A stretch of DNA of 30,057 nucleotides from positions 1-30,057 of the IMG/VR virus record IMGVR_UViG_3300048686_000134; one strand, written 5' to 3'. Below the pieces are notes generated by a model. It was not told the DNA's origin and did no database searches. It saw only the letters and a program-made list of their open reading frames with translations. Below, one piece after another: positions 17,759 to 30,057 of the stretch (its first letter is position 1; each line of letters starts with the position of its first letter). Origin of the DNA: a virus. A program made the position numbers and the translations under genes.

Positions 17759-18295
17759 ATGAAAACGAAACTGGTAGGAGGTATTATGGCACTAATGCTG
17801 TTAGTAAGTGCAGTTCCATTTACAGCAACTAGTGCTACTGCCAACGAACAGGTGTATGCTAAGTCTGCACCGATTGCGACGGAGGCTTTGTATAAGCCTG
17901 TCGTAAAAAATAGGGAGGTTTTAACAAAGCCAAGCCCTTGTAAAAACTGGCTCGTTCGTAAGTTGAAAGAGGCAGGTTTTAAAGGTAAAGGACTGCGAAT
18001 CGCATGGGCAATTGCTATGCGTGAGAGTGGAGGAAGAGCTAATGCAATTTCTTCTACTGGAGACTATGGTGTCTTCCAGTTCAACCGCGCAGCACATAGT
18101 GGTCAACCATGGTGGGACACCGCCAAAATGCTTGACCGAAACTATAACATTATGATTGCTTATCAAATTTCTCAAGGTGGAAAGACATTCTACCCTTGGG
18201 ATATTGACGGTAATGGTAATCATAAGGGTAACTACACCTCTTCAGGTGTATACAATAAGTATAAGTCATGGTTTAACAAGTATCCGTGTAAGTAA
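17759..18295 (+). CDS. Secreted lysozyme/transglycosylase-like enzyme, candidate endolysin
   Basis: 178 aa. Residues 1-28 are a Sec signal peptide: KTK, then GGIMALMLLVSAVPF, and a cleavage site near ATSATA. Residues 60-178 form a lysozyme-like domain: WAIAMRESGGRANAISSTGDYGVFQFNR contains probable catalytic Glu89, with the family's S/TGDYGxFQ motif and a later YPWDIDGNG segment. Cys61 and Cys177 could form a disulfide outside the membrane. It probably cleaves peptidoglycan glycan strands. The SD AAGGAGG with 6-nt spacer, the TTGACA promoter and the terminator make it a self-contained unit, and its composition looks less AT-rich than its neighbours. It may be the phage endolysin exported by Sec, or a virulence- or fitness-type gene acquired from a host. 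Holin genes lie about 2.4 kb away. Confidence 0.8.
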   Translation: MKTKLVGGIMALMLLVSAVPFTATSATANEQVYAKSAPIATEALYKPVVKNREVLTKPSPCKNWLVRKLKEAGFKGKGLRIAWAIAMRESGGRANAISSTGDYGVFQFNRAAHSGQPWWDTAKMLDRNYNIMIAYQISQGGKTFYPWDIDGNGNHKGNYTSSGVYNKYKSWFNKYPCK

Positions 18296-18353: not shown

Positions 18354-19451
18354 TTATTGATCTCTAATTTGAAGCATTACATCATTCCATTCGCCACCAC
18401 GAACTTCCATTGATTGATACTTCTTAATATTTTCTAGATTTCTTTCTACGTCTTCTTTTCTGATTTTGGGGTCAAGTAGTTCTTCACAATGAGCAATCCA
18501 CTCTTGTTCATTATTTGCTACTCTTCCAATGCCTTGTTCTTCTAAAAGTGCGTACTCTGGACTATATGAGGCAATCCAAGGTACGCCAGCGGCAGAATAC
18601 TCAAGACCTTTGATTCCAGATTTTGCATGATTGAACATAACATTATTTAGTGGAACCATACCCACATCAATTTTTCTAAAAAGCTCTGGATACTTGCTAA
18701 TAGGCTTCATAGGCTCTTTAGACTTTTTTACAGATCTAGGTATTCCAAGCTGATCCGCCGCCGCAGGAGCATTGATAATGTTTCCAGAATGGTGAAATGA
18801 TAAGTGATTCTTATCAAGAAAATCACCAAACCACGGACTTAATTGTTCAAGATCCATAGATCTCCATGGAGTAGCACCTACCCAACCAAATTGTGGTAGA
18901 CCACGAGAATGATCGTTTCTCTGTCTCCATCGTGGTAAATCTATACCATTACGAACCATATAGACATTATCATAACCCTTTTCATTCTTATAAAAATCAT
19001 AAAGAAATGGAGTAGATGTAATAATTGCATCTGCATTCTTAATAATGTACATATAGTGATCACGATTATTATCTGGATTTTTTTCAGGATCTGTCATCTC
19101 ATAAGCCATATTTGACTTTTCAAGTCCTTCAAACCAATCATCAATATCTACAACAATTTTTTGACCTTTAGATTTTGCGTCATCAATTTTTTCTGCAACG
19201 GATTTCATCATTATTAACTTCATAACAATAATGTCCCATCCATGAACAGCTTTATCGTCTGGTATAAGCATTCCAAATCCGTGTTGGTCATTGTAACCAG
19301 GAAATCCTATTCCTGTGACCCACCCATGCTTTTCTAATTCCTTCATAGGAAGATAGCATCTATACCAAGCGCAACCGTTTGGTTCTAATGGATTGGTGCC
19401 AAAGGCCCAATCAAATGTTAAAAATGAAACAGTGGGAATATGTTCTGTCAT
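18354..19451 (-). CDS. GT-B fold glycosyltransferase (GT4-like)
   Basis: A 365-aa enzyme that would move a sugar from a nucleotide donor to an acceptor. Early residues CAWYRCYLPMKELEKHG are typical of phage-encoded GT4-like proteins. The central VVDIDDWFEG and ITSTPFLYDFY mark the inter-domain region. The donor-site helix is NHAKSGIKGLEYSAAGVPWI, the family's K-x-x-E pattern. The start is ATG 19451, overlapping the TGA of the preceding gene as ATGA; the GTG at 19469 is less likely. Co-transcription with tail-fibre-like genes suggests its acceptor could be a virion protein, but phage DNA or host-surface glycans are alternatives. No signal peptide or TM, so it acts in the cytoplasm. Confidence 0.82.
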   Translation of the reverse strand: MTEHIPTVSFLTFDWAFGTNPLEPNGCAWYRCYLPMKELEKHGWVTGIGFPGYNDQHGFGMLIPDDKAVHGWDIIVMKLIMMKSVAEKIDDAKSKGQKIVVDIDDWFEGLEKSNMAYEMTDPEKNPDNNRDHYMYIIKNADAIITSTPFLYDFYKNEKGYDNVYMVRNGIDLPRWRQRNDHSRGLPQFGWVGATPWRSMDLEQLSPWFGDFLDKNHLSFHHSGNIINAPAAADQLGIPRSVKKSKEPMKPISKYPELFRKIDVGMVPLNNVMFNHAKSGIKGLEYSAAGVPWIASYSPEYALLEEQGIGRVANNEQEWIAHCEELLDPKIRKEDVERNLENIKKYQSMEVRGGEWNDVMLQIRDQ

Positions 19452-19666
19452 GGATTCTGATTTGTCCACTTACCAATAGAGGCGTTATACTTTAACACCT
19501 GACCGTTTTGTGGATTTGTTATTAGAACATCTGAAAGTCCTGTAACACTTCCACCAGAAATTGGATGAGAGTGTGGTGATGGAACACCCATCAATGGAAC
19601 CCACTTATCCAATTCTGAATCATATATTCTTGCAAGCTTTGGGCTGCTGTCGTCTACTGTTGGCAT
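19448..19666 (-). CDS. Small tail-fibre-like protein, 72 aa
   Basis: Contains KLARIYDSELDKWVPLMG and SHPISGGSVTGLSDVLITNP then GQVLKYNASIGKWTNQ. The 'DVxI..P.nGQVLkYn...gkW.N' motif is widespread in phage tail fibres and base structures. AAGGAT lies upstream of ATG, in the 8-nt gap after the 230-aa fibre-like gene, and the stop overlaps the glycosyltransferase start. It may be an adaptor segment of a split fibre. Only this motif supports a virion role. Confidence 0.68.
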   Translation of the reverse strand: MPTVDDSSPKLARIYDSELDKWVPLMGVPSPHSHPISGGSVTGLSDVLITNPQNGQVLKYNASIGKWTNQNP

Positions 19667-19674
19667 ATTTATCC

Positions 19675-20367
19675 TTACGCTGGTGCTATCGTTGTAATTG
19701 TACCAGAAGCTCCCATATATTTCAATGCTCCACCACTAACAAAAATAAATCCACCATTAACTGGTAATGATCCTGGTGAAGCACTATTTGCTATAAAAAT
19801 TTTGAAACCATCCATAAAAGAAGAATTTGATAGAAACAAATTTCCAGATAAGTTGATGGCTCCGTTTACATTTGCATTATTGTTTATTGTAGTTGATCCA
19901 TTTACTGCAAGATTTCCGTTAATTGCAGCAGATCCAGAAACATTTATTGTTGAAGCACTTGTTACTGTAACAATTGTTTGATTGACTGGATTTTCAAATG
20001 TTACTGGTGCCTGAAAAAGATGTGCTCCAGTCCATGTATAGTTTGCCCCAGTATCTACTTTTCCACCCAATAAAAACCATGTATCAGTATCTGAGTCATA
20101 TACATATCCTGGTTTTCCAGTAGTATTTATTGTTGCATATATGAGTGTACCGTTTGCTGGAGTAGTTCCAGCATTAGAAAGCCCAGTTTTTAAAAATGTA
20201 AATTGTGTACCAGACACTACAGAGTCTACTGTATAGCTGCCATTTATCTGGCTGTTAACTGCTTTAATTGTAAAATATGTTCCCTGACTAAGCCCATGAG
20301 CAGCAGAGGTATTTATTGTTACAGTGTTATTGTTAACAGAATAGGAATTAATAACTATACTAGGCAT
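19675..20367 (-). CDS. Tail fibre / minor structural protein
   Basis: A 230-aa protein. Residues 1-65 form a small beta domain (VTINTSAAHGLSQGTYFTIK) that often occurs at the start of phage structural proteins. Residues 85-115 include YDSDTDTWFLLGGKVD and YTWTGAHLFQAPVTF. Residues 130-185 are Asn/Ser/Thr-rich imperfect repeats (INGNLAVNGSTTINNNANV) suited to a beta-helix or triple-stranded stalk. The C terminus GGALKYMGASGTITTIAPA is a recurrent end motif of phage fibre proteins. It starts at ATG 20367, 9 nt after TGATATAAT, with an almost leaderless transcript, right after the holin-operon terminator. No enzymatic motif is seen. Confidence 0.75.
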   Translation of the reverse strand: MPSIVINSYSVNNNTVTINTSAAHGLSQGTYFTIKAVNSQINGSYTVDSVVSGTQFTFLKTGLSNAGTTPANGTLIYATINTTGKPGYVYDSDTDTWFLLGGKVDTGANYTWTGAHLFQAPVTFENPVNQTIVTVTSASTINVSGSAAINGNLAVNGSTTINNNANVNGAINLSGNLFLSNSSFMDGFKIFIANSASPGSLPVNGGFIFVSGGALKYMGASGTITTIAPA

Positions 20368-20376
20368 GATATAAAA

Positions 20377-20385
20377 ATTATATCA
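20377..20385 (-). promoter_or_regulatory. Extended -10 TGATATAAT before fibre-like gene
   Basis: Minus-strand TGATATAAT, 9 nt before ATG 20367, predicting a leader of about 3 nt. It follows the terminator of the holin unit. Confidence 0.6.
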
Positions 20386-20407
20386 CGATACAGCTATGGT
20401 TCTAAAT

Positions 20408-20439
20408 CAAAAAAAGAAAAAGGCACCCATTAGGATGCC
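20408..20439 (-). terminator. Terminator after holin unit
   Basis: On the minus strand a 7-bp stem, GGCATCC with GGGTGCC (one G-U pair), encloses a TAAT loop. It is followed by TTTTTCTTTTTTTGA. It ends the 21021-20457 unit and is the clearest minus-strand terminator in the window. Confidence 0.8.
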
Positions 20440-20456
20440 AGTTTCCATATTTAACC

Positions 20457-20720
20457 TTAAATGAGGCTAGGATCGTCCTTTTCGGGACCAATATTAGCTG
20501 ATACTATTGATGTTGCATATGACAATACCGCTGCTCCTAGAGATACGCCTGCAAGGGTTTGCCAATCAGCACTAAATGCATCAAATAGTGTTGCGGCAGC
20601 AGTCAGTGAAAGAAATGTCTGTGCCAATGTCTTAATTGCTCGCTCTGTGGCTTTAAGCCAAAATTCCTTTTCTAGCAATGATCCTCCTTTATTCCTGGAT
20701 CTTGTAATTGTATCAGACAT
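20457..20720 (-). CDS. Holin, r1t-type
   Basis: An 87-aa membrane protein that would permeabilise the membrane for lysis. The signature is FWLKATERAIKTLAQTFLSL near the N terminus, a second hydrophobic helix (LAGVSLGAAVLSYATSIVSA) and the C-terminal GPEKDDPSLI, all characteristic of the r1t/phiLC3-type holin family of Gram-positive phages. The start ATG 20720 (MSDTITRSRN) overlaps the upstream gene by 8 nt; GAGG lies about 12 nt upstream. An upstream in-frame ATG (MEDMSD) is possible and could provide a dual start, as in holin/antiholin pairs. It is transcribed with the two-TM protein and ended by the terminator at 20408-20439. Confidence 0.85.
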   Translation of the reverse strand: MSDTITRSRNKGGSLLEKEFWLKATERAIKTLAQTFLSLTAAATLFDAFSADWQTLAGVSLGAAVLSYATSIVSANIGPEKDDPSLI

Positions 20721-21021
20721 GTCTTCCATCCTCAATAGGCATTTCAATATTTTCTTCAAAATCATTAGTTGTTTCGTTACTATATGTATTTTTATTTTCT
20801 AATGACATTGATCTCCAAAGCCTTACATCTTGATATGCAGCACCACCAATGTATGATGCAACAACTGCTCCCATTAAACCAAATGCCCCTAATGCTAGGG
20901 TGTCACCAATATCTGTGTTATCCCATCTTATAGCTACATAAACTATAATTATTGCGGCAAAAAGAAGAGATCCAAATACTGCTCGCCTTCTAAGTTTCCA
21001 TGATGGTCCTTGTTGAGCCAT
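20713..21021 (-). CDS. Two-TM membrane protein, possible second holin or antiholin
   Basis: A 102-aa protein. The N terminus is positive (WKLRRRAVFG), with TM1 at about 15-33 and TM2 at about 41-61 (LALGAFGLMGAVVASYIGGAA), then an acidic soluble C-terminal tail. The segment after TM2, SYIGGAAYQDVRLWR, resembles small membrane proteins encoded next to holins. It lies directly upstream of and overlapping the r1t-type holin, which supports a lysis role. The ATG at 21021 is exactly 7 nt after the TGATATAAT hexamer, predicting a leaderless mRNA. The function is not proven by any motif. Confidence 0.7.
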   Translation of the reverse strand: MAQQGPSWKLRRRAVFGSLLFAAIIIVYVAIRWDNTDIGDTLALGAFGLMGAVVASYIGGAAYQDVRLWRSMSLENKNTYSNETTNDFEENIEMPIEDGRHV

Positions 21022-21027
21022 ATAAAA

Positions 21028-21036
21028 ATTATATCA
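21028..21036 (-). promoter_or_regulatory. Leaderless promoter TGATATAAT of the holin unit
   Basis: Minus-strand TGATATAAT, six bases TTTTAT, then ATG 21021. The predicted start site is the A of ATG. It lies in a 44-bp divergent gap opposite the oxygenase promoter. Confidence 0.7.
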
Positions 21037-21050
21037 TTTTATCTAAATGT

Positions 21051-21059
21051 TGCTATAAT
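21051..21059 (+). promoter_or_regulatory. Leaderless promoter TGCTATAAT of the plus-strand oxygenase
   Basis: TGCTATAAT, six bases GTTCCA, then ATG 21066. The spacing is identical to the divergent holin-unit promoter. No SD is present before the ATG. Confidence 0.65.
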
Positions 21060-21065
21060 GTTCCA

Positions 21066-21851
21066 ATGATTGTAGAAGAACTATATCCGCAAATACTAGT
21101 ATTTCATGATGCATTAGAAGATCCTAAAAATTTTTTAGAAACAATAACTAACCCTAATGAATTTGTTGAACCATGGCATGATTGGTATACTTTAGGAAAA
21201 CAAACTATGTTTAAAAATTATCCGTATTTTAATTTTAATAATTTTCCTAGTGAAGAAGAATGGTTAAGTTCTTGCAATCAAAGCGATAATGATTTAGCAA
21301 AATATATAGCAAACATTTTTTATAAATGTACAAAATACTATGTTGATAAATATAATGTAGATATTGAAAATTGGAATCATGGAATGCCTACAATTTGTAG
21401 TCACAAGGGTAGCGAAATTGAAGAGCCTGGATCAGAAAAAACATTGGCAATGCAATATCATACAGATTTTGTAATGTCACAAAAAGATAATCCTGGTTTT
21501 AAGCATTGGATTACCTGTAATTTATATATAAATGACGAATATGATGGTGGTGAAGTTTCATATAAACTATTTAAAGATGATGGCACTTATGACTTATTAA
21601 AATATAAACCAAAAGCTGGAGATGCTGTAGTTTTTCCATCTCACGAACCTTACTATCATGGTGTTAAAAAAACAAAAAATGGAGAAAAATTTTTTATAAG
21701 AATGTTTTGGGGATACAATTATTCTGGTAGCAAAGAGTGGTTAGAAAATAAAAATAAATATGGCGATGCATGGGAACAAATGGAAAAGGAAAGAATTAAA
21801 AAAGAAAACATGTCATCTTTATGGATGAAGGGTCATATAGAAGAAGATTAG
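21066..21851 (+). CDS. 2OG-Fe(II) oxygenase, prolyl-4-hydroxylase type (plus strand)
   Basis: 261 aa. It uses O2 and 2-oxoglutarate with Fe(II) to hydroxylate a substrate, probably a protein proline or another side chain. The metal triad is H132-x-D134 (QYHTDF) and H198 (YYHGVKK), with R212 (FFIRMFW) for 2-oxoglutarate. The core NLYINDEYDGGEVSYKLF and KPKAGDAVVFPSHEP is the standard P4H beta-helix. ATG 21066 (MIVEELYPQI) is chosen because it sits 7 nt after TGCTATAAT; the upstream in-frame ATGs lie before the promoter. The gene is very AT-rich and is the only oxygenase on this strand. Its TAG overlaps the TAA of the convergent oxygenase gene by 4 bp. The substrate is unknown. Confidence 0.88.
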   Translation: MIVEELYPQILVFHDALEDPKNFLETITNPNEFVEPWHDWYTLGKQTMFKNYPYFNFNNFPSEEEWLSSCNQSDNDLAKYIANIFYKCTKYYVDKYNVDIENWNHGMPTICSHKGSEIEEPGSEKTLAMQYHTDFVMSQKDNPGFKHWITCNLYINDEYDGGEVSYKLFKDDGTYDLLKYKPKAGDAVVFPSHEPYYHGVKKTKNGEKFFIRMFWGYNYSGSKEWLENKNKYGDAWEQMEKERIKKENMSSLWMKGHIEED

Positions 21852-22552
21852 TCTTTATGATATTGATGAATTGGATGAATAGTCTCTTCTGCTTCACCAG
21901 TTTCTATATTCTCAAAAACTCTATTTTGCTCCATTAATCTTTTTACTGCGGGATCAAATGCAAATGTAGTAGAAATATATCTATTTGGTCCGTCAAGAAC
22001 TGGCAATGTGCTATGAGTATACTTAGTTGTTCCTGGATGCATAAGTAAGTCACCAGCTTCTGGCTTGTATTTTATATTTAAGTTTTCATAAAATACTTCT
22101 CCACCATTAAAGTCATTGTGATAAAGAACCATTCCAAACTGAACATAATTTGTTGTTCCATCAGTTCCAGATGGATTATCTGCGTGTGGAAACATTTTTT
22201 CACCAGGCTTCATTCTATGAACAGTGATTAGCCCACCAAAAATCCATTTTTCTTCTCTTTCATCATCAAAAAGATTTCTTATTCTTTGCATTACATTATG
22301 AATTATTGGATTAGATATATTTTCTTCTCCAACATAGGCTATTTTTTTATTCCACCATTCACGTTTATCTTTGTCCCATTGTTCATCTGTAGCAGATTCA
22401 GCTATGTTTAAAAACCAATCTCTTTCATCTTGAGTTGTAAAATTTTTTATTACATGAATATTCTTTTCAACTTGATAATAGTTTGGGTGATTTAAAATTT
22501 TTTCTACCTGATATATGCTTTCGTCACTAATAATATCGTTTAAATTTTTCAT
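21848..22552 (-). CDS. 2OG-Fe(II) oxygenase, prolyl-4-hydroxylase type
   Basis: A 234-aa enzyme of the same superfamily. Metal ligands are H123-x-D125 (MFPHADNP) and H180 (KYTHSTLP), with R191 (GPNRYIST) for 2-oxoglutarate. Core strands are VLYHNDFNGGEVFYENL and IKYKPEAGDLLMHPG. The acidic C-terminal extension (EETIHPIHQYHKD) is not part of the core. The start ATG overlaps the TGA of the upstream oxygenase gene as ATGA, so the two are co-translated. All catalytic residues are present, so it should be active. It diverges clearly from the other two in the N-terminal half, suggesting a different substrate. Protein hydroxylation is inferred from family only. Confidence 0.88.
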   Translation of the reverse strand: MKNLNDIISDESIYQVEKILNHPNYYQVEKNIHVIKNFTTQDERDWFLNIAESATDEQWDKDKREWWNKKIAYVGEENISNPIIHNVMQRIRNLFDDEREEKWIFGGLITVHRMKPGEKMFPHADNPSGTDGTTNYVQFGMVLYHNDFNGGEVFYENLNIKYKPEAGDLLMHPGTTKYTHSTLPVLDGPNRYISTTFAFDPAVKRLMEQNRVFENIETGEAEETIHPIHQYHKD

Positions 22553-23250
22553 GATCCAGTCTCCCTATAAAATTCTGCTTTATGAAATTTATCTGAATAA
22601 TCAAGCATCGTTACTAAAGAGTATTTAGTTCCCTTTCCTACTGGCATAGCTCTATGAGGATACATAAAATTAGATGGAAATATAAATAGATCACCAGCCT
22701 CTGGCTTAATCATTAAATTTTGAAGTCTAAAATATAGCTCTCCGCCACTATAATCATCATTTAAATATGCAACTAAAGATACCGTGCAGTTATATGAGTA
22801 TCCATGATCCGCATGTTCTTGAAAGTGCTGATTTGGCCCGTACTTGACCAAATTCATAGCCTCCCAATACCTTAGCTCTCCAATATTATATTTTAGTGTA
22901 TAGTCTTTAACTGGTTGCAGCTGTCTATAATATAAATGATTATATAAATCATTTACAGTTTCTAATTTTGGAGACCCGTAGCTTTTCATACTTGTTGGCT
23001 TGTATTTAAAATCATAACAATCTCTATACTCTGGCATTAATACACCATAGCCAACATAGGCTGGTGTCCATTTAAAAAATTGATCAGATCCGTCAAGAAT
23101 TTTTGACATGGTATCTATAACTTCTTTACCATTTGGTATTACGTTTTTATAAACCCATATACCATTACCCAAATCTATTGATTCTGTCCATGTTTGTTCT
23201 TGAATTTGATACCATTCTTGTATTTTTTGATGCTCAATTGCTTGTTGCAT
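22549..23250 (-). CDS. 2OG-Fe(II) oxygenase, prolyl-4-hydroxylase type
   Basis: A 233-aa enzyme. Ligands are H146-x-D148 (FQEHADHG) and H199 (MYPHRAMP), with K209 (GKGTKYSLV) in the 2-oxoglutarate position. The core VAYLNDDYSGGELYFRL and IKPEAGDLFIFPSNF is canonical. The N-terminal 130 residues are helical and aromatic-rich (EWYQIQEQTW, WTPAYVGYG). It starts at ATG 23250 with GGAAAGGAA upstream. Its -10 TGATATAAT lies 21 nt before ATG, embedded in the end of the upstream gene. It is the first gene of a two-oxygenase unit. Confidence 0.88.
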   Translation of the reverse strand: MQQAIEHQKIQEWYQIQEQTWTESIDLGNGIWVYKNVIPNGKEVIDTMSKILDGSDQFFKWTPAYVGYGVLMPEYRDCYDFKYKPTSMKSYGSPKLETVNDLYNHLYYRQLQPVKDYTLKYNIGELRYWEAMNLVKYGPNQHFQEHADHGYSYNCTVSLVAYLNDDYSGGELYFRLQNLMIKPEAGDLFIFPSNFMYPHRAMPVGKGTKYSLVTMLDYSDKFHKAEFYRETGS

Positions 23251-23271
23251 TAAATTCCTTTCCAGTCACAA

Positions 23272-23280
23272 ATTATATCA
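23272..23280 (-). promoter_or_regulatory. TGATATAAT promoter overlapping a stop codon
   Basis: The minus-strand upstream gene ends ATG ATA TAA, and TGATATAAT runs through these codons. The leader to ATG 23250 is about 15 nt and carries GGAAAGGAA. Confidence 0.6.
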
Positions 23281-23881
23281 TGTTGGGTATTATCGGCATC
23301 CATTTCTGTGGATACTGACCAATTAATTTAGATGTTGTAATAATATTAAAAGATATTCCTTTATCAATTCCATAAAACTCTGTTCTTGCACCAGACTCAT
23401 ACAATACTAGTGAACCATTTTCTATATTAGTCTTTGTAGAATTTATTTTAATAAAAGCATTATCTTTACATTCTAAAATCCAATATCCACAAAAATTGGG
23501 CGCACCTATTCCACCAGAATCATACCAATAATCTTCTAAAAACTCTGTTTCATATTCTGATGTAATCCAAAACTGTGTTTTATCCGTATTTATTTCATTT
23601 ATTTTACAAAGAGAGCCTAACATTTTTGACAATTCTTTAAAACACTTATAAACACTTTGATTATAAATTTGAAAATAGTTAAATGATAGATTATTTACAC
23701 ATGACCTTTCATATAAAAATTCTGCTTTTTCTCCAGAGGTGAACAAATATATATTTTCTTTATTATTGATTACTTTTTCTATATCTGAAACTACCTCTTT
23801 TGGTGTAACATTTGAATGCTCAACATTATTAATATATTGTTTTTTATTAAAAATAATATATTTTTTATGTCTATTGTCCAT
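23273..23881 (-). CDS. Unknown protein, oxygenase-like fold but no metal ligands
   Basis: A 202-aa AT-rich gene. The C-terminal half (NFCGYWILECKDNAFIKI, IENGSLVLYESGARTEFYG, ISFNIITTSKLIG) has the strand pattern of the P4H/cupin beta-helix, including 'GSLVLYES' where active relatives have 'GDxxxFPS'. However, there is no HxD and no distal His, so the site looks dead or different. The N-terminal half is Lys/Asn-rich with no recognisable motif. It overlaps the preceding gene by 11 nt and precedes the active oxygenases. It could be a decayed paralogue or a substrate-binding partner. The fold resemblance is a visual judgement. Confidence 0.55.
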   Translation of the reverse strand: MDNRHKKYIIFNKKQYINNVEHSNVTPKEVVSDIEKVINNKENIYLFTSGEKAEFLYERSCVNNLSFNYFQIYNQSVYKCFKELSKMLGSLCKINEINTDKTQFWITSEYETEFLEDYWYDSGGIGAPNFCGYWILECKDNAFIKINSTKTNIENGSLVLYESGARTEFYGIDKGISFNIITTSKLIGQYPQKWMPIIPNMI

Positions 23882-24434
23882 TTTCTTCTCTTTCTATTTT
23901 CCCACCAATTCTGTGGTTATACCAAGTATAGGGGAAGACAACATCTCTTTGCATTTCAGTTTCAGGTAGCTGAGACCTTCCATCATTTTTTATTGCTTTT
24001 TTTTCATGTTCAAGCATTTTTACAACTTTTTGATATGCAGCTTCCATTTTACTATCTCTGTCTCCGCCAACATCCATTTCTATATTAAAGTTTCCTAAAA
24101 ATATTATTCTTGTCATTATTCCATACCATAGCCACCAACCTTTTCTTCTATGCCTGGGATTTACCCAACCACTAACTCCATAGTACATTCCAGAACCCAC
24201 TGCTGGATGCAAATATAAAGAATGTATGTCTGGATACTTATGATAAAAATAAGGAGATTCTACAATTGTTCCTTTTGGTAGATCACTATTTGCATACATG
24301 CAATATACATAAGAATAATGATTATGATCTGTTAATTTGTGAATATGCATCCAGCTTGACTCCAATTCAGTTGGATATGATTCAATATCTATTACAAGAA
24401 TATTGTTAATAATTTTTTTTATAAAATTTGTCAT
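23871..24434 (-). CDS. Unknown protein, weakly acyltransferase-like
   Basis: 187 aa. The segment SGMYYGVSGWVNPRHRRKGWWLWYG resembles the beta4-loop-helix of GNAT N-acyltransferases, where an R/Q-x-x-G-x-G/A loop binds the CoA pyrophosphate; here RRKGWW is off-consensus. The C terminus is charged (LEHEKKAIKNDGRSQLPE) and ends in FPYTWYNHRIGGK. Trp, Tyr and His are unusually frequent. It lacks an obvious SD (the stop of the Hint gene lies 7 nt before the ATG) and is probably translated by coupling. The GNAT idea is tentative; otherwise this is a hypothetical protein of the modification cluster. Confidence 0.5.
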   Translation of the reverse strand: MTNFIKKIINNILVIDIESYPTELESSWMHIHKLTDHNHYSYVYCMYANSDLPKGTIVESPYFYHKYPDIHSLYLHPAVGSGMYYGVSGWVNPRHRRKGWWLWYGIMTRIIFLGNFNIEMDVGGDRDSKMEAAYQKVVKMLEHEKKAIKNDGRSQLPETEMQRDVVFPYTWYNHRIGGKIEREENGQ

Positions 24435-24441
24435 AATAATT

Positions 24442-25401
24442 CTACTGATTTATTGGTGTAATATTTTGAATTGGATGCGAGTCATGAACTAACATATTTT
24501 CAGTAAAGAAAATATCATATGGTTCGGTATTAATACATACAACAGTATTTGGAACATTTACTTTTTCTAATAAAAATATTTCTTCAAATGTTTCAGTTTC
24601 ATAAGAATAAACTAAGTCAGTTTCAATAACTTCTTTTACATCAATAAACTTTGCCTCATTATTTCTTTTAATTAAAATATAATGAGAATCTGAAAAAAGA
24701 TCATTATTAATAACAATTGCCCAATCTGAAACTCTTTTTGCAATTCCAAAGATGCTTGTTTCCGTAAACTGAATATTTGGATTTTCACTACTCCAGTTTA
24801 ATGCCTGCGTATTTGAATTATCATTTGTTGACCAGTTTTGTGGAAAATTCTCAATGTCTGCTGACAATAAAATATCTCCAGGCTCTAAATCTCCAGCAGC
24901 AACAAGGCCATTTGGAGTTCTTATTAATGTATCTACACCAACACTTTTTGCATATGGTGGCTTAAAGTTTGGTGGAAAGTTTGGTGGAAAGAATGGTGGA
25001 AAGAATGGTGGAAAGAATGGAGGAAAGAATGGTGGGAAAAACGGTGGGAAAAACGGTGGGAAAAACGGTGGCACATAGTTATAATATGTATAGTTTACTT
25101 GTCCGTTTGGGTCTAGTGGAGTATTTTCAGCAGGAGACTGACTGATAATTATATTATTCAATGCAGAATTTGTAGTATTTGATGGTGTTTGTGTACCAGT
25201 AGTTAGTCCTCTAGCAGCAATGAGAGTATTTGCATTAGTTCGTGTCAGATTAACAACGTTTGGAGTTATAAATAGCCATCTTTTCCAGGTACCAGAAACT
25301 TTGACAAAGGCATCCACAGAACTTCTCCAGGTTCCTGAAACCTTGGCAAAAGCTCTTGAAATGCTTCTATATGATCCGCTATCTTTTACTGAACTGGGCA
25401 T
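24442..25401 (-). CDS. Hint-domain protein with FFPP tandem repeats
   Basis: 319 aa. Residues 12-42 hold two copies of the motif AFxKVSGTW. Residues 48-107 read like a PASTA-type or small beta domain (TRTNANTLIAARGLTTG). Residues 113-140 are seven exact FFPP units, then NFPP and NFKPP. Residues 153-308 form a Hint (hedgehog/intein) fold: S153-VGVDTLIRTPNG, where Cys1 is replaced by Ser; DLEPGDILLS; block-B-like H240 (SDSHYIL); VINNDLF; and an end EPYDIFFTENMLVHDS with H306, D307 in place of Asn, and S308. Hint domains cleave or splice their own backbone. It sits among tail-type genes just upstream of the oxygenases. No signal peptide is seen. Whether it is autocatalytic is unknown because two key positions deviate. 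Confidence 0.78.
   Translation of the reverse strand: MPSSVKDSGSYRSISRAFAKVSGTWRSSVDAFVKVSGTWKRWLFITPNVVNLTRTNANTLIAARGLTTGTQTPSNTTNSALNNIIISQSPAENTPLDPNGQVNYTYYNYVPPFFPPFFPPFFPPFFPPFFPPFFPPFFPPNFPPNFKPPYAKSVGVDTLIRTPNGLVAAGDLEPGDILLSADIENFPQNWSTNDNSNTQALNWSSENPNIQFTETSIFGIAKRVSDWAIVINNDLFSDSHYILIKRNNEAKFIDVKEVIETDLVYSYETETFEEIFLLEKVNVPNTVVCINTEPYDIFFTENMLVHDSHPIQNITPINQ
24955..25065 (-). repeat. 12-bp coding tandem repeat (FFPP/NFPP)
   Basis: Seven 12-bp units at 24982-25065, plus degenerate NFPP/NFKPP units down to 24955. Plus-strand units fall into two adjacent subtypes, ggtgggaaaaac and ggtggaaagaat, which suggests stepwise expansion of local blocks. Each unit encodes Phe-Phe-Pro-Pro, so the repeat keeps the reading frame. 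Confidence 0.9.
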
Positions 25402-25403
25402 AA

Positions 25404-26078
25404 TTACACATACTTAATCCATATGTCACCATCATTACCACCAGTTGGATCTGAGGTTGATGCAGTAATATTCCTTACTCTCGCACTCAGTGGTTGTGCT
25501 CCAGCTAGTGTAATAGATGTTGCATTAGATATTGTACCACCAGTAATGGGCACATATGTTGCTGATGCAGAAGCAATAGTAAGATAAGCTGCTAGTTCTG
25601 TACCAATTGTCTGTGTTGTTAAAAAGTTTGAAAAAACAAATGGATCAGTCATTACCTGATCTTTATCTACCCAAACTACACCGTGTGCAGAAGCACCTCC
25701 AACGCTGGGCATATTATTAGTAAGAGTTGCAGTTCCAGATTCTATAACTTGTAATGAGCTAGCATCAGAATCAATCCACATAAACCCTTCTGGAATAGAT
25801 ATGCTTGTAGACTGAACAATTAGCTCATGTGGAATATTTGGGGCAACTGTTCCACCACCAGTTGGTGTTGCTTCAATAAAGTCTATATCTTCTCTTATTT
25901 TTAAGAGGTGTCCATAAATACTTTCATCTGATGGTTCTTCACCAGTGATATAGTTTTCTTTACCATAATGATAAATTCTAAAGGCTTCTACAATATCAGC
26001 CTTATCTCCTAATTCTGCAATCAATGTATCAAACTCTATAAATGGAGAGTTCGCGGCAGTAGAAATAAGTTGTGGCAT
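25404..26078 (-). CDS. Tail/minor structural protein
   Basis: 224 aa. The first 70 residues are helical and acidic (FIEFDTLIAELGDKADIVEA and SIYGHLLKIREDIDFIEA), a typical oligomerisation or attachment segment of phage fibre-like proteins. The middle and end are Ala/Ser/Thr-rich beta sequence (TATLTNNMPSVGGASAHGVV, TIASASATYVPITGGTISN), ending TGGNDGDIWIKYV, a frequent terminal motif of tail proteins. SD AAGGTG. The promoter TGATATAAT lies 21 nt before ATG. It is followed after 2 nt by the Hint gene, so the two products are probably made together. Confidence 0.68.
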   Translation of the reverse strand: MPQLISTAANSPFIEFDTLIAELGDKADIVEAFRIYHYGKENYITGEEPSDESIYGHLLKIREDIDFIEATPTGGGTVAPNIPHELIVQSTSISIPEGFMWIDSDASSLQVIESGTATLTNNMPSVGGASAHGVVWVDKDQVMTDPFVFSNFLTTQTIGTELAAYLTIASASATYVPITGGTISNATSITLAGAQPLSARVRNITASTSDPTGGNDGDIWIKYV

Positions 26079-26099
26079 AGTCTCACATCACCTTATTTA

Positions 26100-26108
26100 A
26101 TTATATCA
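26100..26108 (-). promoter_or_regulatory. Extended -10 TGATATAAT before tail-protein/Hint unit
   Basis: Minus-strand TGATATAAT in the 38-bp gap after the small membrane-protein gene. The short leader contains AAGGTG before ATG 26078. Confidence 0.6.
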
Positions 26109-26116
26109 TTATGTTG

Positions 26117-26404
26117 TTACCAGGGGAAAAAATGTTTATATATTGCTAAACTTGCAAGAAGTGTCCACCCAATATTAAATAAAATAATAGTTGGTAGAGT
26201 TTTTACTGTTGAAGACCATATTAAGCTTATACTGGAAATAAGAGCAAATATATAGAGCCACCACCATTGATATCCAAAAAGTAGACCAGGGAAGATGATA
26301 CAGAGCTTTGTCATAAACGCCCAAAACTCTACTATATTTGCTTTATTCCAATATTCTTTTTCACGCATTGTTTTTAATGCGTCTACCCATTGAAGATTTT
26401 TCAT
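26117..26404 (-). CDS. Small multi-TM membrane protein
   Basis: 95 aa. The soluble N terminus (MKNLQWVDALKTMREKEYWNK) is followed by three closely packed hydrophobic stretches at about 27-45, 47-63 and 68-91 (IVEFWAFMTKLCIIFPGLLFG, WLYIFALISSISLIW, TIILFNIGWTLLASLAIY). No family is recognised. The start shares one base with the stop of the upstream 132-aa gene. Membrane location is clear; a holin-like or superinfection role is only a possibility. Confidence 0.65.
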   Translation of the reverse strand: MKNLQWVDALKTMREKEYWNKANIVEFWAFMTKLCIIFPGLLFGYQWWWLYIFALISSISLIWSSTVKTLPTIILFNIGWTLLASLAIYKHFFPW

Positions 26405-26802
26405 TATTTTCTTACAGGAACATAGTCTTGCTCAAAATTACTCCAAACATGAGTAACCTCGTCATTTGACATTTGTGGTGGACGCCATTCAAGAGCAACT
26501 TTGTCAAACACATATGAATCTGCCCATGGGTTATCTGGTAAAACTGGAGAAAATTGTTCTATATCAGCATAGTATCTAGAACCAATTTGAGCATTTGGAT
26601 GCATGATCGGTGTATTAAATAATATATCTATCTCCCCAGTATTTGGATCTACTATGATTTCAGACTGTGTTTGATTAACTGGTACATAGTAATATTCATC
26701 TGTTTCCGTAGGTTGTTCTTCGTCAGCTTTAAATACTTGAAAATTTTCTACTAAAAAAGAATTTTTTGATACTATTGCGTAGTCTGTTTGCTCTATTTTC
26801 AT
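26404..26802 (-). CDS. Unknown acidic protein, 132 aa
   Basis: A soluble acidic protein, MKIEQTDYAIVSKNSF onward, with Pro- and Tyr-rich sequence (TDEYYYVPVNQ, SPVLPDNPWADSYVF) and a C terminus ending FEQDYVPVRK. I do not recognise it. The texture is reminiscent of small tail-fibre assembly or attachment proteins, without a defining motif. The SD GGAG lies 6 nt before ATG. Its promoter TGATATAAT overlaps the halogenase stop codon. Confidence 0.6.
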   Translation of the reverse strand: MKIEQTDYAIVSKNSFLVENFQVFKADEEQPTETDEYYYVPVNQTQSEIIVDPNTGEIDILFNTPIMHPNAQIGSRYYADIEQFSPVLPDNPWADSYVFDKVALEWRPPQMSNDEVTHVWSNFEQDYVPVRK

Positions 26803-26817
26803 GATATCTCCAGAAAC

Positions 26818-26826
26818 ATTATATCA
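26818..26826 (-). promoter_or_regulatory. TGATATAAT promoter sharing the halogenase stop codon
   Basis: The TGA of the halogenase gene (26826-26824) is the TGA of TGATATAAT. A leader of about 9 nt with GGAG precedes ATG 26802. Confidence 0.6.
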
Positions 26827-28422
26827 TTCTTCTCCATTATAAATTTGATCTTTTAAGTATTGATAAAGAGTTGGAGATTTATCTGCTGCATCTTGCCAAA
26901 GAGCCTTGTTAATTTCCCAACGCCTTATTGTTTCATCAATAGTTCTCTTATAGTCAATTCCAAACTCATACTCAAGAGATTGAATTCTTGCATCATTGAT
27001 CATTTTAACATGCATACCAGTAGCGATGTATGGAATTCCCGCTCTAGAAAGTGGGTACTCCCATCTATCCATATAATTCATTCCAAAATCTGCATACCCA
27101 CCAGCCTTAGGAACTACATTATCCATCATATCTTTTGCAAACACTCTATCGTTTACATCTTGCCAATACTTTGTATCATTACGATGTGATAAAGCATAAT
27201 GTAGTCCTACAAATTGAGCAAATCCATAAAATAATGTCTTTGATGAAGCATTGAATATGTCTCTATCATACTGAGAAATTTTTTGCTCTCTATCAAGAAT
27301 ATCAACAAGCTTGAATAAAAATTCATGAATGCTATATAGTCCATTGCTTTCTAGTGGCTCAATAAATGCAGCAGAAAGACCAATTCCAACAACATTTTTA
27401 ACAAAGACTCTTTCGTGCATACCAACTCTAAATTGAATATCTTTAAATTCTAGGGAATCAACTTCTTCCCTAGTTCTTGGTATGACCATTCTGTCAGACA
27501 TTAAATATTGTTTGAATTCTTCCTTTGCTTGTTCTGGATCAGCATACTTATCAGAGTATACATATCCTGCTCCAAGGCGCGACCATAAAGGAATATTCCA
27601 GCACCAGCCATTTTCAATAGCAGTAGAATTTGTAAATCCCTCAAGCTCTCTTTCTTTATCCTTGTAGGGAATTCTTGTAGCCCATGCCCTATTATTTGGC
27701 AACCTATCTGCCCACGACTCAAATGGCTCATTCATTGCGCCACCAAGAAGTAGACTCTTAAATCCAGTGCAGTCTACATAAAGATCTGCGTTAATAACGT
27801 CGCCATTATCAAGTGTAAGAGACTCTATCCCTTCATCATTTACCTTAATATCCTCAACCTTACCTTGTATTAACTTTACTCCACGAGGTAGGCAGTAATT
27901 TTCTTTTAGCCATGCACCAAACTTTGTAGCATCAAAATGAAAAGCAATATCTCTATGAATATTAAAGTTTGCAAACTCTCCATTTAAATTAAGATTAAAC
28001 TTATTTCCTTCAAAAAGTGGGGTAGCAGGGAAAAGACACCTGACCATATCGTCCCAGGGAGTATCTGGATAGTAATATTTCTTATAAAACCAATCATTCA
28101 TACCAAAGTTAGTATGCTCAAGCCATGGGGCACCAAACGGGTAGTGGAAAGATTCTCCATCCTTCTCATAAAAATCAGTAAATTTAATGCTTAATTTATA
28201 TGAACCATCTGTACTTGAAAGAAAGTCTTTATCTTCTAGACCAATAAAATTTGTCCAATTTCTAATGCCACCGATTGTGCTTTCTCCTACGCCAACAATC
28301 GGAATGTCTTTTGGCTCAATTACTGTGATATCTAGGTGTGGATATGCCCGAATAAGAGATGTTGCACTCATCCATCCACCAGATCCGCCACCAACAATTA
28401 CAACTTTTTTTACTTCAAGCAT
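26824..28422 (-). CDS. Flavin-dependent tryptophan-halogenase-like enzyme
   Basis: A 532-aa enzyme using FADH2, O2 and halide to make an enzyme-held halogenating species. The FAD-binding motif is VIVGGGSGGWMSA (8-20). GVGESTI (44-50) and the probable catalytic Lys76 (GSYKLSIKF) follow, then the second FAD motif YVDCTGFKS, and the halogenase-specific W-x-W-x-I-P at 273-278 (WCWNIP). Later, SAAFIEPLESNGL matches the family's substrate/chloride-side loop. All key residues are present and length is normal (about 500-540). It is preceded by a consensus promoter (28453-28481) and GAAGGG before ATG. The substrate cannot be read from sequence: free tryptophan or indoles, a metabolite, or a peptide. 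No flavin reductase is in the window, so the host must supply FADH2. Confidence 0.93.
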   Translation of the reverse strand: MLEVKKVVIVGGGSGGWMSATSLIRAYPHLDITVIEPKDIPIVGVGESTIGGIRNWTNFIGLEDKDFLSSTDGSYKLSIKFTDFYEKDGESFHYPFGAPWLEHTNFGMNDWFYKKYYYPDTPWDDMVRCLFPATPLFEGNKFNLNLNGEFANFNIHRDIAFHFDATKFGAWLKENYCLPRGVKLIQGKVEDIKVNDEGIESLTLDNGDVINADLYVDCTGFKSLLLGGAMNEPFESWADRLPNNRAWATRIPYKDKERELEGFTNSTAIENGWCWNIPLWSRLGAGYVYSDKYADPEQAKEEFKQYLMSDRMVIPRTREEVDSLEFKDIQFRVGMHERVFVKNVVGIGLSAAFIEPLESNGLYSIHEFLFKLVDILDREQKISQYDRDIFNASSKTLFYGFAQFVGLHYALSHRNDTKYWQDVNDRVFAKDMMDNVVPKAGGYADFGMNYMDRWEYPLSRAGIPYIATGMHVKMINDARIQSLEYEFGIDYKRTIDETIRRWEINKALWQDAADKSPTLYQYLKDQIYNGEE

Positions 28423-28484: not shown

Positions 28485-29594
28485 TTAAAATGGTTCTGCT
28501 GGAGTTCCAGCAAATAATGAATCTAATTTGGGATGTGGAAGAACAATTACCACATTGCCATCAGTTTGATATGTGTCGGCAGAATTACTACCGAATCCAG
28601 CACCCATATTATAAATTGGATTTGTTCTTTGTCTATAAAAACCACCTGGGTTAATATATCCTGGATTTGATCCTGCTGGTCTGTCAAATGTTGAATTATA
28701 TTCTTGTACTCCTGCGATTGTTTCTGCAAAAACAATATCTGCCGCAAGAGCAGTATTGCCACCATTAGAAGATGAATTTGCATAGTGACCACTACCTCCT
28801 GAACCACCATTATAATGTGATCCAGAGTGTGTTCCACAGGCTCCACCCCACCAGCCTCCGCCGCCACCACCACTGGTACTCGTTCCTGCGTCTGCTCCTT
28901 GAAGTATTGTTCCAGCCACACCTCCAGTAGTCCATCCACTGCCACCACCAGTTTGTGATGCACGGCCTTGAGAGTGACCTATACCTCCTACCCATCCACC
29001 TCCACTTCCTGCTACACCATGGTGACTGTTTGATCCGTGACCACCTCCACCTCCACCGCCAGCAATAATAAGTGCTGAGGATTGTGACACACCAGTCGGA
29101 GGCCATACCGAAGCATTTGGACCAGCATGATTTTGTGCATTATAAAAGATTCCACTTAACCCACCACCACCTGATCCAGAACCGTGTCCACGACCTCCAC
29201 CACCATAGGCTTTGCCTCCCTGTGCAGCACCTATTGTAGAAGTATTACCAGTATTCTGTGTACCTTTTTGTCCAGTAATCAGAGTATATGGAATATCTTT
29301 TCTAAACTTTACTATTCCCCATGTATATCCACCGTAGCCACCACCATTATATGAGTTACTATAAGTAGAATAAATTCCTGCTCCTGCACCCCACATAAAG
29401 ACAAGTCCTTCAAAATTAGTTCTTGGGATAAATGTTCTTGCACCATGAGTGGTTGCAGAAACAAGAACTCCTGGCATCTGTGAAACTGGATCTACAATAT
29501 CGCTTATTGTAGAAATCTGCCTATTATATTGTGATCCATCTCTTTCAATAAGAGTGTATGAAACTCCAGGACCAGATACTTTATCAATTGCCAT
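28485..29594 (-). CDS. Glycine-rich adhesin/structural protein
   Basis: 369 aa. Residues 1-60 form an N-terminal beta segment (GVSYTLIERDGSQYNRQ). Residues 62-210 and 215-300 are extremely Gly-rich, with Trp and His (VFMWGAGAGIYST, GGGGGWWGGACG, GGSGGSGHYANSS). The end is DGNVVIVLPHPKLDSL. The plan of a strand like 'F.WGAG', Gly-rich loops, YTLITGQKG and a final 'VVIV' strand matches Gly-rich domains of phage tail-tip proteins. Such folds resemble polyglycine-II adhesin tips of T-even gp38. ATG 29594 overlaps the TAA of the upstream paralogue (TAATG); the TTG at 29603 is less likely. Probable role: receptor binding or virion surface (inference). Confidence 0.72.
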   Translation of the reverse strand: MAIDKVSGPGVSYTLIERDGSQYNRQISTISDIVDPVSQMPGVLVSATTHGARTFIPRTNFEGLVFMWGAGAGIYSTYSNSYNGGGYGGYTWGIVKFRKDIPYTLITGQKGTQNTGNTSTIGAAQGGKAYGGGGRGHGSGSGGGGLSGIFYNAQNHAGPNASVWPPTGVSQSSALIIAGGGGGGGHGSNSHHGVAGSGGGWVGGIGHSQGRASQTGGGSGWTTGGVAGTILQGADAGTSTSGGGGGGWWGGACGTHSGSHYNGGSGGSGHYANSSSNGGNTALAADIVFAETIAGVQEYNSTFDRPAGSNPGYINPGGFYRQRTNPIYNMGAGFGSNSADTYQTDGNVVIVLPHPKLDSLFAGTPAEPF

Positions 29595-30057
29595 TATGAC
29601 CAACCCTGTACTAATGAAATAATAACTTGCCCATTTCCACCAATATTATGTGTTGAATTGTATGGTGGTGCTGGAGTAGATCCAAGCCGCCCACCGCCGC
29701 GACCAGTATATGTATTTCTTCTTGCATTAGAAGCCTGTGCTGGTTGATTAGTGTTAGATGTTGATGCATTTGATCCAACATATACGCTTGGAGAAGTTTC
29801 AATATATGAGTTTGCTACAAATTGACGAAGATGCTGATTTGGACCGCTTGTATATAGATCTGGTGCATGTCCAGATCCTCCAGATCCTCCATTGTGATGG
29901 CCAGTAGTATGTCCACCACCGCCGCCACCGAACCAACCACCGCCACCGCCGCCAGTATGTGATGATCCAGTTCCAGCCTGACCACCAAGCATAGCAATAC
30001 CAGTTATTCCACCGTACCCACCGTTTCCTCCAGCAGTTTGTGAGGCCTGACCAGTGT
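29594..30057 (-). CDS. Glycine-rich paralogue (5' end outside window)
   Basis: The frame is open from the right edge to the TAA at 29594, so at least 153 C-terminal residues are present and the start lies outside. ATG 29992 is internal: codons upstream of it continue the same Gly-rich protein (TGQASQTAGGNGGYGGITG). The motifs GGGGGGWFGGGGGG, NGGSGGSGH and the final NGGNGQVII-type strand mirror the downstream gene, showing a tandem duplication. A role as a virion-surface adhesin or fibre component is inferred. Confidence 0.7.
   Translation of the reverse strand, partial: TGQASQTAGGNGGYGGITGIAMLGGQAGTGSSHTGGGGGGWFGGGGGGHTTGHHNGGSGGSGHAPDLYTSGPNQHLRQFVANSYIETSPSVYVGSNASTSNTNQPAQASNARRNTYTGRGGGRLGSTPAPPYNSTHNIGGNGQVIISLVQGWS

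Follow-up and report, generated by a model that had tools for sequence, protein, structure and literature searches.

An ordered set of 2OG oxygenase genes recurs beside a proline-repeat protein in uncultured phages and suggests modification of fibre-like proteins by the phages themselves

Genes of the repeat cassette

The window, i.e. the whole stretch of 30,057 nucleotides analysed here (IMG/VR record IMGVR_UViG_3300048686_000134), belongs to an aquatic phage related to Streptomyces phages; neither the window nor an FFPP locus (a locus with the proline repeat described below) has a DNA match among isolated phages. A sequence-only reading of the window had described a cluster of modifying enzymes around repeat and Gly-rich proteins. 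The cluster is real, though several separate things were mixed in it. Its core, judged from the genes and their relatives, appears to be a cassette with a (PPFF)n protein, R, at its head (24442..25401, minus strand), together with the genes starting at 23871, 23273, 22549, 21848 and 21000. Genes are referred to below by these coordinates and the loci used for comparison by L numbers.

R, the proposed substrate of the cassette, comprises an N-terminal part, a PASTA domain, seven PPFF and two PPNF units, and a C-terminal Hint-like domain. The Hint domain read earlier in this protein is degenerate: the region scores 19 bits against the Hint_2 cut-off of 28.4 and lacks Cys1 and the terminal Asn. 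Position 1 reads KSVGVDTLIRTP with no nucleophilic Cys or Ser, as is also the case in L602 and L603; it is Cys in L049 and others. The C-terminal HN is absent, VHDS being found in the window R and in L602. A Hint-like domain occurs in only about 8 of 88 complete repeat proteins. Directly upstream of R lies a tail-fibre-like gene (25404..26078, minus strand; phrog_14064 tail fiber, 1.9e-5), and in L049 and L602, too, R is preceded by a gene of this type.

The repeat family holds 1193 PPxxPP units. The second Phe is kept in nearly all, the first aromatic position is taken by F, Y, H or W, and synonymous codons vary; on the evidence of these sequences the repeat is shown to be under constraint at the protein level. 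Fibre-type domains in the window R are limited to PASTA and the Hint-like domain. Among its relatives, Peptidase_S74, a tail-spike chaperone, was found in L299 and L191 (3.8e-12 and 3.6e-11), and others carry fn3 (up to 3.8e-21) and PASTA domains. By their domain content, the proteins that carry the repeat thus look like fibres. In prokaryotes the strict repeat was seen only in 4 contigs of 3 MAGs (84,980 genomes), and a literature search returned no paper on the phage repeat.

Two genes of no known family follow R on the minus strand: N (23871..24434, 187 aa) and M (23273..23881, 202 aa). They had been read as GNAT-like and as oxygenase-like without ligands, respectively. Neither has a Pfam or PHROG family match, and the 2OG ligand set was not found in M; both are, nevertheless, conserved members of the cassette. 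A relative of M, 53% identical, occupies the same place in L602; the predicted fold of M itself is of low confidence (pLDDT 37). For N, the IMG/VR search gave no relative, while synteny showed relatives at the same place in L602 and L603.

The remaining cassette genes code for the three P4H-type oxygenases of the sequence-only reading, all of which score above the PF13640 (2OG-FeII_Oxy_3) cut-off of 27 bits, a family that spans many non-prolyl hydroxylases. These are the P4H-like type A enzyme (22549..23250, minus strand; 53.7 bits, 4.2e-14), an enzyme nearest to type H (21848..22552, minus strand; 31.5 bits, 3.6e-7) and a type F enzyme (21000..21851, plus strand; 38 bits, 3.3e-9), which is convergent to the other cassette genes, as in L245. 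The HxD...H iron triad and the 2OG-binding residue are present in all three translations, the latter as Lys at H+10 in 22549 and 21000 and as Arg at H+11 in 21848. By sequence, the nearest solved chain to 22549 is the prolyl 4-hydroxylase 3itq, a modest match (phmmer, 5.5e-4), followed by LH3-type chains of collagen lysyl hydroxylase. Close relatives of 22549 occur in FFPP arrays; the best relative of 21848 lies in the FFPP locus L245 (1.8e-115), where a relative of 21000 is also found (5e-87). Among the array oxygenases the HxD/E..H..R/K residues are kept in 291 of 305.

Linkage of the repeat gene and the oxygenase arrays

Repeat loci were collected by scanning IMG/VR for the proline-repeat DNA alone. 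The 120 loci obtained contain 315 2OG ORFs, or 3.1 per 10 kb, against 0.34-0.43 per 10 kb in the control loci (RNR, Gly6-Trp and Gly6-Tyr). The linkage is directional. A 2OG gene lies within 4 kb downstream of 45 of the 54 repeat genes with enough flank, the other 9 having none nearby, and upstream of 0 of 25. The median gap between the two genes is 446 bp, and they share a strand in 250 of 276 cases. At the RNR control loci, 5 of 29 had a 2OG gene (p = 8e-9 against 45/54). When repeat proteins were collapsed at 50% or 35% identity, a 2OG gene was nearby in 18/25 and 12/18, respectively. Of the repeat-bearing viral records, 26/30 exceed the curated PF13640 cut-off, many with 6-11 domains.

The same picture emerged from 32 phage records chosen by the presence of RNR, an unrelated gene. 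Seven of them have an FF/PP repeat protein, and four or more PF13640 domains were found in these seven and in no other record; four carry the PPFF repeat and three an FFxPP repeat, a looser motif that was recognised after the arrays had been seen and has 0 matches in the 25 other records.

The gene order R-(N-M)-A0-A-P1-P2-D-F-E-G is conserved across 64 loci. R is the first cassette gene in most related loci, and the type A oxygenase is present in all of the 64 labelled ones. P1 and P2 are two paralogous proteins with a dUTPase-like core (phrog_7084). The window cassette is without P1, P2 and D, and shares the order R..A H f' with L245. The sequence-only reading had put forward its own test, whether 2OG genes co-occur with the FFPP protein in further phages. 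The outcome is strongly positive, directional and colinear, and the clustering of 2OG genes beside the repeat protein is far above chance. That dozens of uncultured phages have an ordered oxygenase set next to this repeat suggests that they modify their own fibre proteins.

Halogenase, glycosyltransferase and Gly-rich proteins

The flavin-dependent halogenase (26824..28422, minus strand) is identified with certainty (PF04820, 2.8e-99). Its closest solved relative, over the full length, is VirX1 of cyanophage Syn10 (6QGM; PMC8407142), with 4.7e-101 over residues 1-530. The alignment places the GxGxxG motif (reading GGGSGG), the catalytic Lys (SYKLSIKF), WxWxIP (GWCWNIP) and the catalytic Glu (EPLES). 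There are 79 relatives in IMG/VR. A 2OG gene lies within 4 kb in 40/53 halogenase loci, and halogenase kin are found in other 2OG arrays. The neighbouring gene (26117..26404, minus strand) codes for a small membrane-type protein, conserved in an alignment of its relatives, 32 of 46 of which, where well flanked, have a halogenase within 1 kb.

The earlier view of one single system that includes the halogenase is not borne out. No halogenase was found in the 120 FFPP loci or in 30 FFPP records, and no FFPP repeat in 32 halogenase records; the window and L049 are the only two places where both occur. Since halogenase kin are almost never seen with the repeat, the halogenase and 26117 probably form a second module apart from the R cassette. 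This sets the repeat/oxygenase cassette apart from the phage halogenases.

The GT-B-type glycosyltransferase (18354..19469, minus strand) is recognised mainly by phrog_7162 (1.8e-31), its Pfam matches being below cut-off. It follows the RNR/portal block and is conserved near RNR. It had been read as a possible enzyme for the glycosylation of hydroxyproline. A 2OG gene is present in 3/12 RNR loci with the glycosyltransferase and in 14/68 without it (p = 0.71), and the glycosyltransferase is found in 0/120 FFPP loci. It is part of the phage backbone, without linkage to 2OG genes.

A Gly-rich fibre/adhesin-like protein that matches ALK_LTK_GRD is encoded at 28485..29603 (minus strand). Halogenation of Trp in such proteins, also envisaged earlier, receives no support from gene content, a halogenase being present in 2/88 Gly6-Trp versus 4/81 Gly6-Tyr loci. 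When a repeat-type substrate was sought beside halogenase/2OG clusters, only Gly-rich proteins stood out (21/44 loci). Gly-rich relatives stand directly upstream of the halogenase in L002; there is no general linkage. Thus, of the earlier interpretation, the 2OG/FFPP co-occurrence and the fibre-like carriers stand, and hydroxyproline glycosylation, Trp halogenation and the single system are not supported.

Proposed function of the cassette

From gene content and linkage, we think it fairly probable that the cassette modifies a fibre-like virion protein after translation and that the repeat of R is the substrate of the 2OG-Fe(II) oxygenases whose genes lie downstream, with the halogenase and 26117 separate and the glycosyltransferase part of the backbone. 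The most likely reaction would be hydroxylation of the repeat prolines, perhaps of aromatic residues too. Hydroxylation could make a very hydrophobic repeat soluble; alternatively, it may add rigidity to a rod of polyproline-II type or provide polar adsorption surfaces. Linkage is not proof of a substrate: another product of the same operon could be the oxygenase target, or the oxygenases could act jointly with P1/P2 on a small molecule.

In another reading, the 2OG genes, together with the halogenase (and, in other loci, with P1/P2), would produce or tailor a small molecule or a glycan of the host surface, and the repeat protein merely adjoins them. A precedent is a cyanophage 10-gene cluster of carbamoyltransferases, an amino acid halogenase, 2OG oxygenases and HAD phosphatases, proposed to make a secondary metabolite or to decorate the capsule (PMC7824862). 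VirX1 accepts small aromatic substrates in vitro (PMC8407142), and the 2OG genes near 40/53 halogenases fit the same scheme. We nevertheless regard it as unlikely. The repeat-selected set is without any halogenase, yet the highest 2OG density is found there, and the arrays begin after the repeat gene, not before it. Unlike the cyanophage cluster, the window has no carbamoyltransferase, amino acid methylase or HAD phosphatase domain among its Pfam-scanned ORFs, i.e. all but a few short ones.

Bacterial P4Hs act on host proteins, and the phage enzymes might likewise act on a protein of the host surface or of its translation apparatus, for example one resembling EF-Tu. Repair of alkylated DNA is a further candidate role, and cyanophage 2OG genes close to uvsX/uvsY have been suggested to encode repair enzymes (PMC2984593). 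Pfam, however, places the oxygenases in 2OG-FeII_Oxy_3 and not in an AlkB family, and for a host target or DNA repair one would not expect the genes to be tied so strictly to a place downstream of a single phage repeat gene. We consider such roles improbable. Equally hard to credit is mere co-location of extra genes in the fibre region of aquatic phages with no joint function: repeat and oxygenases do both lie there, and Gly-rich proteins too are often near halogenase clusters, but the other fibre-like markers (Gly6-Trp, Gly6-Tyr) are at background 2OG density, the repeat predicts arrays in RNR-chosen records (7/7 vs 0/25), and gene order is conserved.

A bolder proposal can be made, which we hold to be slightly less likely than not. 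Aquatic phages might build a fibre of a new kind, in which an extended (PPFF)n rod, frequently C-terminal and almost confined to viruses, is matured by a dedicated colinear line of several different 2OG oxygenases together with P1/P2. The product would be a hydrophobic repeat hydroxylated extensively and at specific positions, for which no described virion component offers a parallel.

To our knowledge, phage 2OG oxygenases have no agreed substrate. If the proposed modification of R is true, the enzyme-substrate pair would explain one class of them, protein hydroxylation would be a way for phages to build or protect fibres, and the cassette would offer candidate new peptidyl hydroxylases for Pro-Pro-aromatic sequences. 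By one count, 2OG oxygenase genes are present in 76/153 cyanophage genomes (PMC10452541).

Related systems share parts of this arrangement. PBCV-1 has a virus-encoded prolyl-hydroxylase-type 2OG enzyme, the title of the 1999 work (cited in PMC12333218) reporting 4-hydroxyproline in viral proteins and characterised peptide substrates; the window phage also codes for a genetically coupled proline-repeat protein. PBCV-1 is a eukaryotic virus with a single enzyme, whereas in the phages one repeat protein is directly coupled to an ordered series of predicted enzymes, about ten at most. The Mimivirus collagens with L230 (lysyl hydroxylase/glucosyltransferase) and R699 (PMC9546862) likewise combine a repetitive structural protein with the virus's own 2OG hydroxylase, but there the repeat is Gly-X-Y collagen modified on lysine, and the phages have a PPFF repeat, many oxygenases and no linked glycosyltransferase. 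Modification of virion proteins by phage enzymes, proposed here, is described for mycobacteriophages (Freeman et al. 2023, as reported in PMC12363180); in that account glycosyltransferases act on capsid and tail tube, in contrast to the oxygenases and repeat protein of the present cassette, to which the glycosyltransferase is not linked. The Syn10 locus that encodes VirX1 also holds 2OG and P-type genes, and Syn10 belongs to a different phage lineage.

Association of oxygenase genes with the PPFF repeat

Repeat loci were collected with a DNA pattern for (PPFF)3PP, blind to their neighbours; at least 120 stretches were obtained, and the counts refer to this sample. ORFs were called mechanically, and genes of 2OG-Fe(II) oxygenase (2OG) type were scored with an iteratively built profile of our own, which is looser than Pfam and was checked by Pfam counts and active-site motifs. 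The 120 repeat stretches listed carried 315 2OG-type ORFs in 1.0 Mb, as compared with densities of 0.34 to 0.43 per 10 kb in three control sets from the same collection (RNR loci and two sets of Gly-rich loci). Among the stretches listed, a 2OG gene was found within 4 kb downstream of the repeat gene in 45 of the 54 with enough sequence and within 4 kb upstream in 0 of 25, so that the co-occurrence in other phages expected from the sequence-only reading is upheld and the layout is polar. The linkage persisted, among the same stretches, when similar repeat proteins were collapsed (18/25 at 50%, 12/18 at 35%). When whole repeat-bearing records were scored with curated Pfam, 26 of 30 exceeded the cut-off.

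The association was also followed from the unrelated RNR gene. PPFFPPFFPP was sought and PF13640 domains were counted in 32 viral records drawn from RNR-selected loci. The four records with PPFF had 4, 7, 7 and 5 domains. Three further records, with at least five domains each and no PPFF match, carry a related six-residue repeat (FF-x-PP-x), located in a protein adjoining the array or a few genes upstream; this looser repeat, sought in all 32 records, matched exactly those three. An array is present in 7/7 repeat records (strict plus looser motif) versus 0/25 others. Since the looser motif was recognised after the fact, the strict test is the one that counts (4/4 versus 3/28, p = 0.001).

The cassette and its repeat protein

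Pfam and PHROGs searches bore out the three 2OG oxygenases of the window (A, 22549; H, 21848; F, 21000), the flavin halogenase (26824-28422, minus strand), the glycosyltransferase (18354-19469, minus strand) and the Gly-rich protein (28485-29603, minus strand). The FFPP protein (24442-25401, minus strand) also stood, its Hint part being a weak match, and no family was obtained for the genes read as oxygenase-like (M, 23273) and GNAT-like (N, 23871). Cassette genes in 64 loci were labelled by similarity to reference loci, and a colinear order emerged: repeat protein, at times N and M, then A0, A, P1, P2, D, F, E, H and G, with P1 and P2 in either arrangement. In the window, which has neither P1 nor P2, the order is repeat, N, M, A, H, f' (F, encoded on the opposite strand), and A, H, f' recurs in another FFPP locus, L245. 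N and M recur in loci L602 and L603, and the conserved order makes them parts of the cassette. P1/P2 corresponds to phrog_7084, which has no function annotated there; in its confidently predicted structure (pLDDT 91), weak matches by Foldseek (best E about 1e-3) point to a core like that of dUTPase. This family (L602:6975-7742, L602:8434-9153 and about 180 relatives) recurs in FFPP arrays, in halogenase arrays and at the VirX1 locus.

In 1,193 PPxxPP units the second aromatic is Phe in nearly all, while the first is Phe, Tyr, His or Trp. Synonymous codons are mixed, and retention of Phe despite this mixing suggests selection on the protein. The repeat lies within 30 residues of the protein end in 54 of 88 complete proteins. 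Relatives carry fn3 and PASTA domains and, in two, the Peptidase_S74 chaperone, a typical tail-spike domain. In the Hint domain of the window protein, Cys is missing at the first position and Asn at the last, so self-cleavage of this protein is unlikely. Among prokaryote genomes, the strict repeat was met only in four contigs of three MAGs. In the open-access papers searched, the matches listed for the string PPFFPP concern antimicrobial and other peptides, and the phage PPFF repeat appears not to have been described there.

From this arrangement we propose that the cassette oxygenases would hydroxylate the repeat of the fibre-like protein. Known parallels are a chlorella virus prolyl 4-hydroxylase with viral peptides (cited in PMC12333218) and collagen modification in mimivirus (PMC9546862).

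Halogenase and glycosyltransferase

The glycosyltransferase and the halogenase do not belong to the repeat/2OG cassette. The glycosyltransferase travels with RNR whether 2OG genes are present or not, and its suggested place in a modification set is not retained. The idea of one system of prolyl hydroxylases, Hint-FFPP protein and halogenase likewise found no support: a halogenase was found in 0 of the 120 repeat loci listed and the repeat in 0/32 halogenase records, the window and L049 being the exceptions that carry both.

The halogenase has oxygenase company of its own. In 79 IMG/VR loci with a halogenase relative, 139 halogenase ORFs and 264 2OG-type ORFs (own profile; 2.1 per 10 kb) were counted, and a 2OG gene lay within 4 kb in 40 of the 53 with 4 kb on both sides (23/32 collapsed at 70% identity). 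At loci picked by the 26117 membrane protein, 2OG genes occurred in 15/52 with a halogenase versus 0/26 without (p = 0.0016). This protein (26117-26404, minus strand) is a highly conserved 95-aa membrane-type protein with invariant YW..N..EF.AF and WW, matching no family; its IMG/VR relatives (A1; L085-L162) have a halogenase within 1 kb in 32 of 46 well-flanked cases, and any halogenase occurs in 0/80 RNR loci.

Among solved structures, VirX1 of cyanophage Syn10 is closest to the window halogenase, and key motifs align. At the VirX1 locus a pair of halogenases stands with 2OG-type genes and a single P-type gene; the gene region of this characterised halogenase is itself a 2OG/P-type array. 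A halogenated small molecule has been put forward for cyanophages (PMC7824862). The VirX1 active site is described as open (PMC8407142), and a larger substrate would also suit it. Action on Trp of Gly-rich proteins, suggested earlier, lost ground, as Trp in Gly-rich motifs fails to predict a halogenase. Five tandem Gly-rich ALK-GRD-like proteins (L002:4382-9980) lie immediately upstream of a halogenase that shares 62% identity with that of the window, and a protein combining GGTWR repeats with PTPTP linkers (L018:3687-5510) lies near another.

The phage

The window is a complete IMG/VR record of 30,057 bases, broken off at both ends; the tape-measure gene exits one side and a Gly-rich gene the other. 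Genes for portal, capsid, protease and tape measure can be recognised. The window portal shows 54% identity to that of Streptomyces phages of the Annadreamy group, with which the order RNR, endolysin, portal, protease, capsid is shared. The window is taken to be part of a larger, aquatic siphovirus of actinophage-like type, its host and its aquatic origin being inferred from the relatives among which it falls. Between RNR and portal lies a 1182-aa protein without Pfam match (11765-15313, minus strand); a hypothetical protein occupies the corresponding position in Annadreamy. An SLT_3-type lysozyme (17759-18295, plus strand) adjoins RNR on the opposite strand and is kept in many RNR loci.
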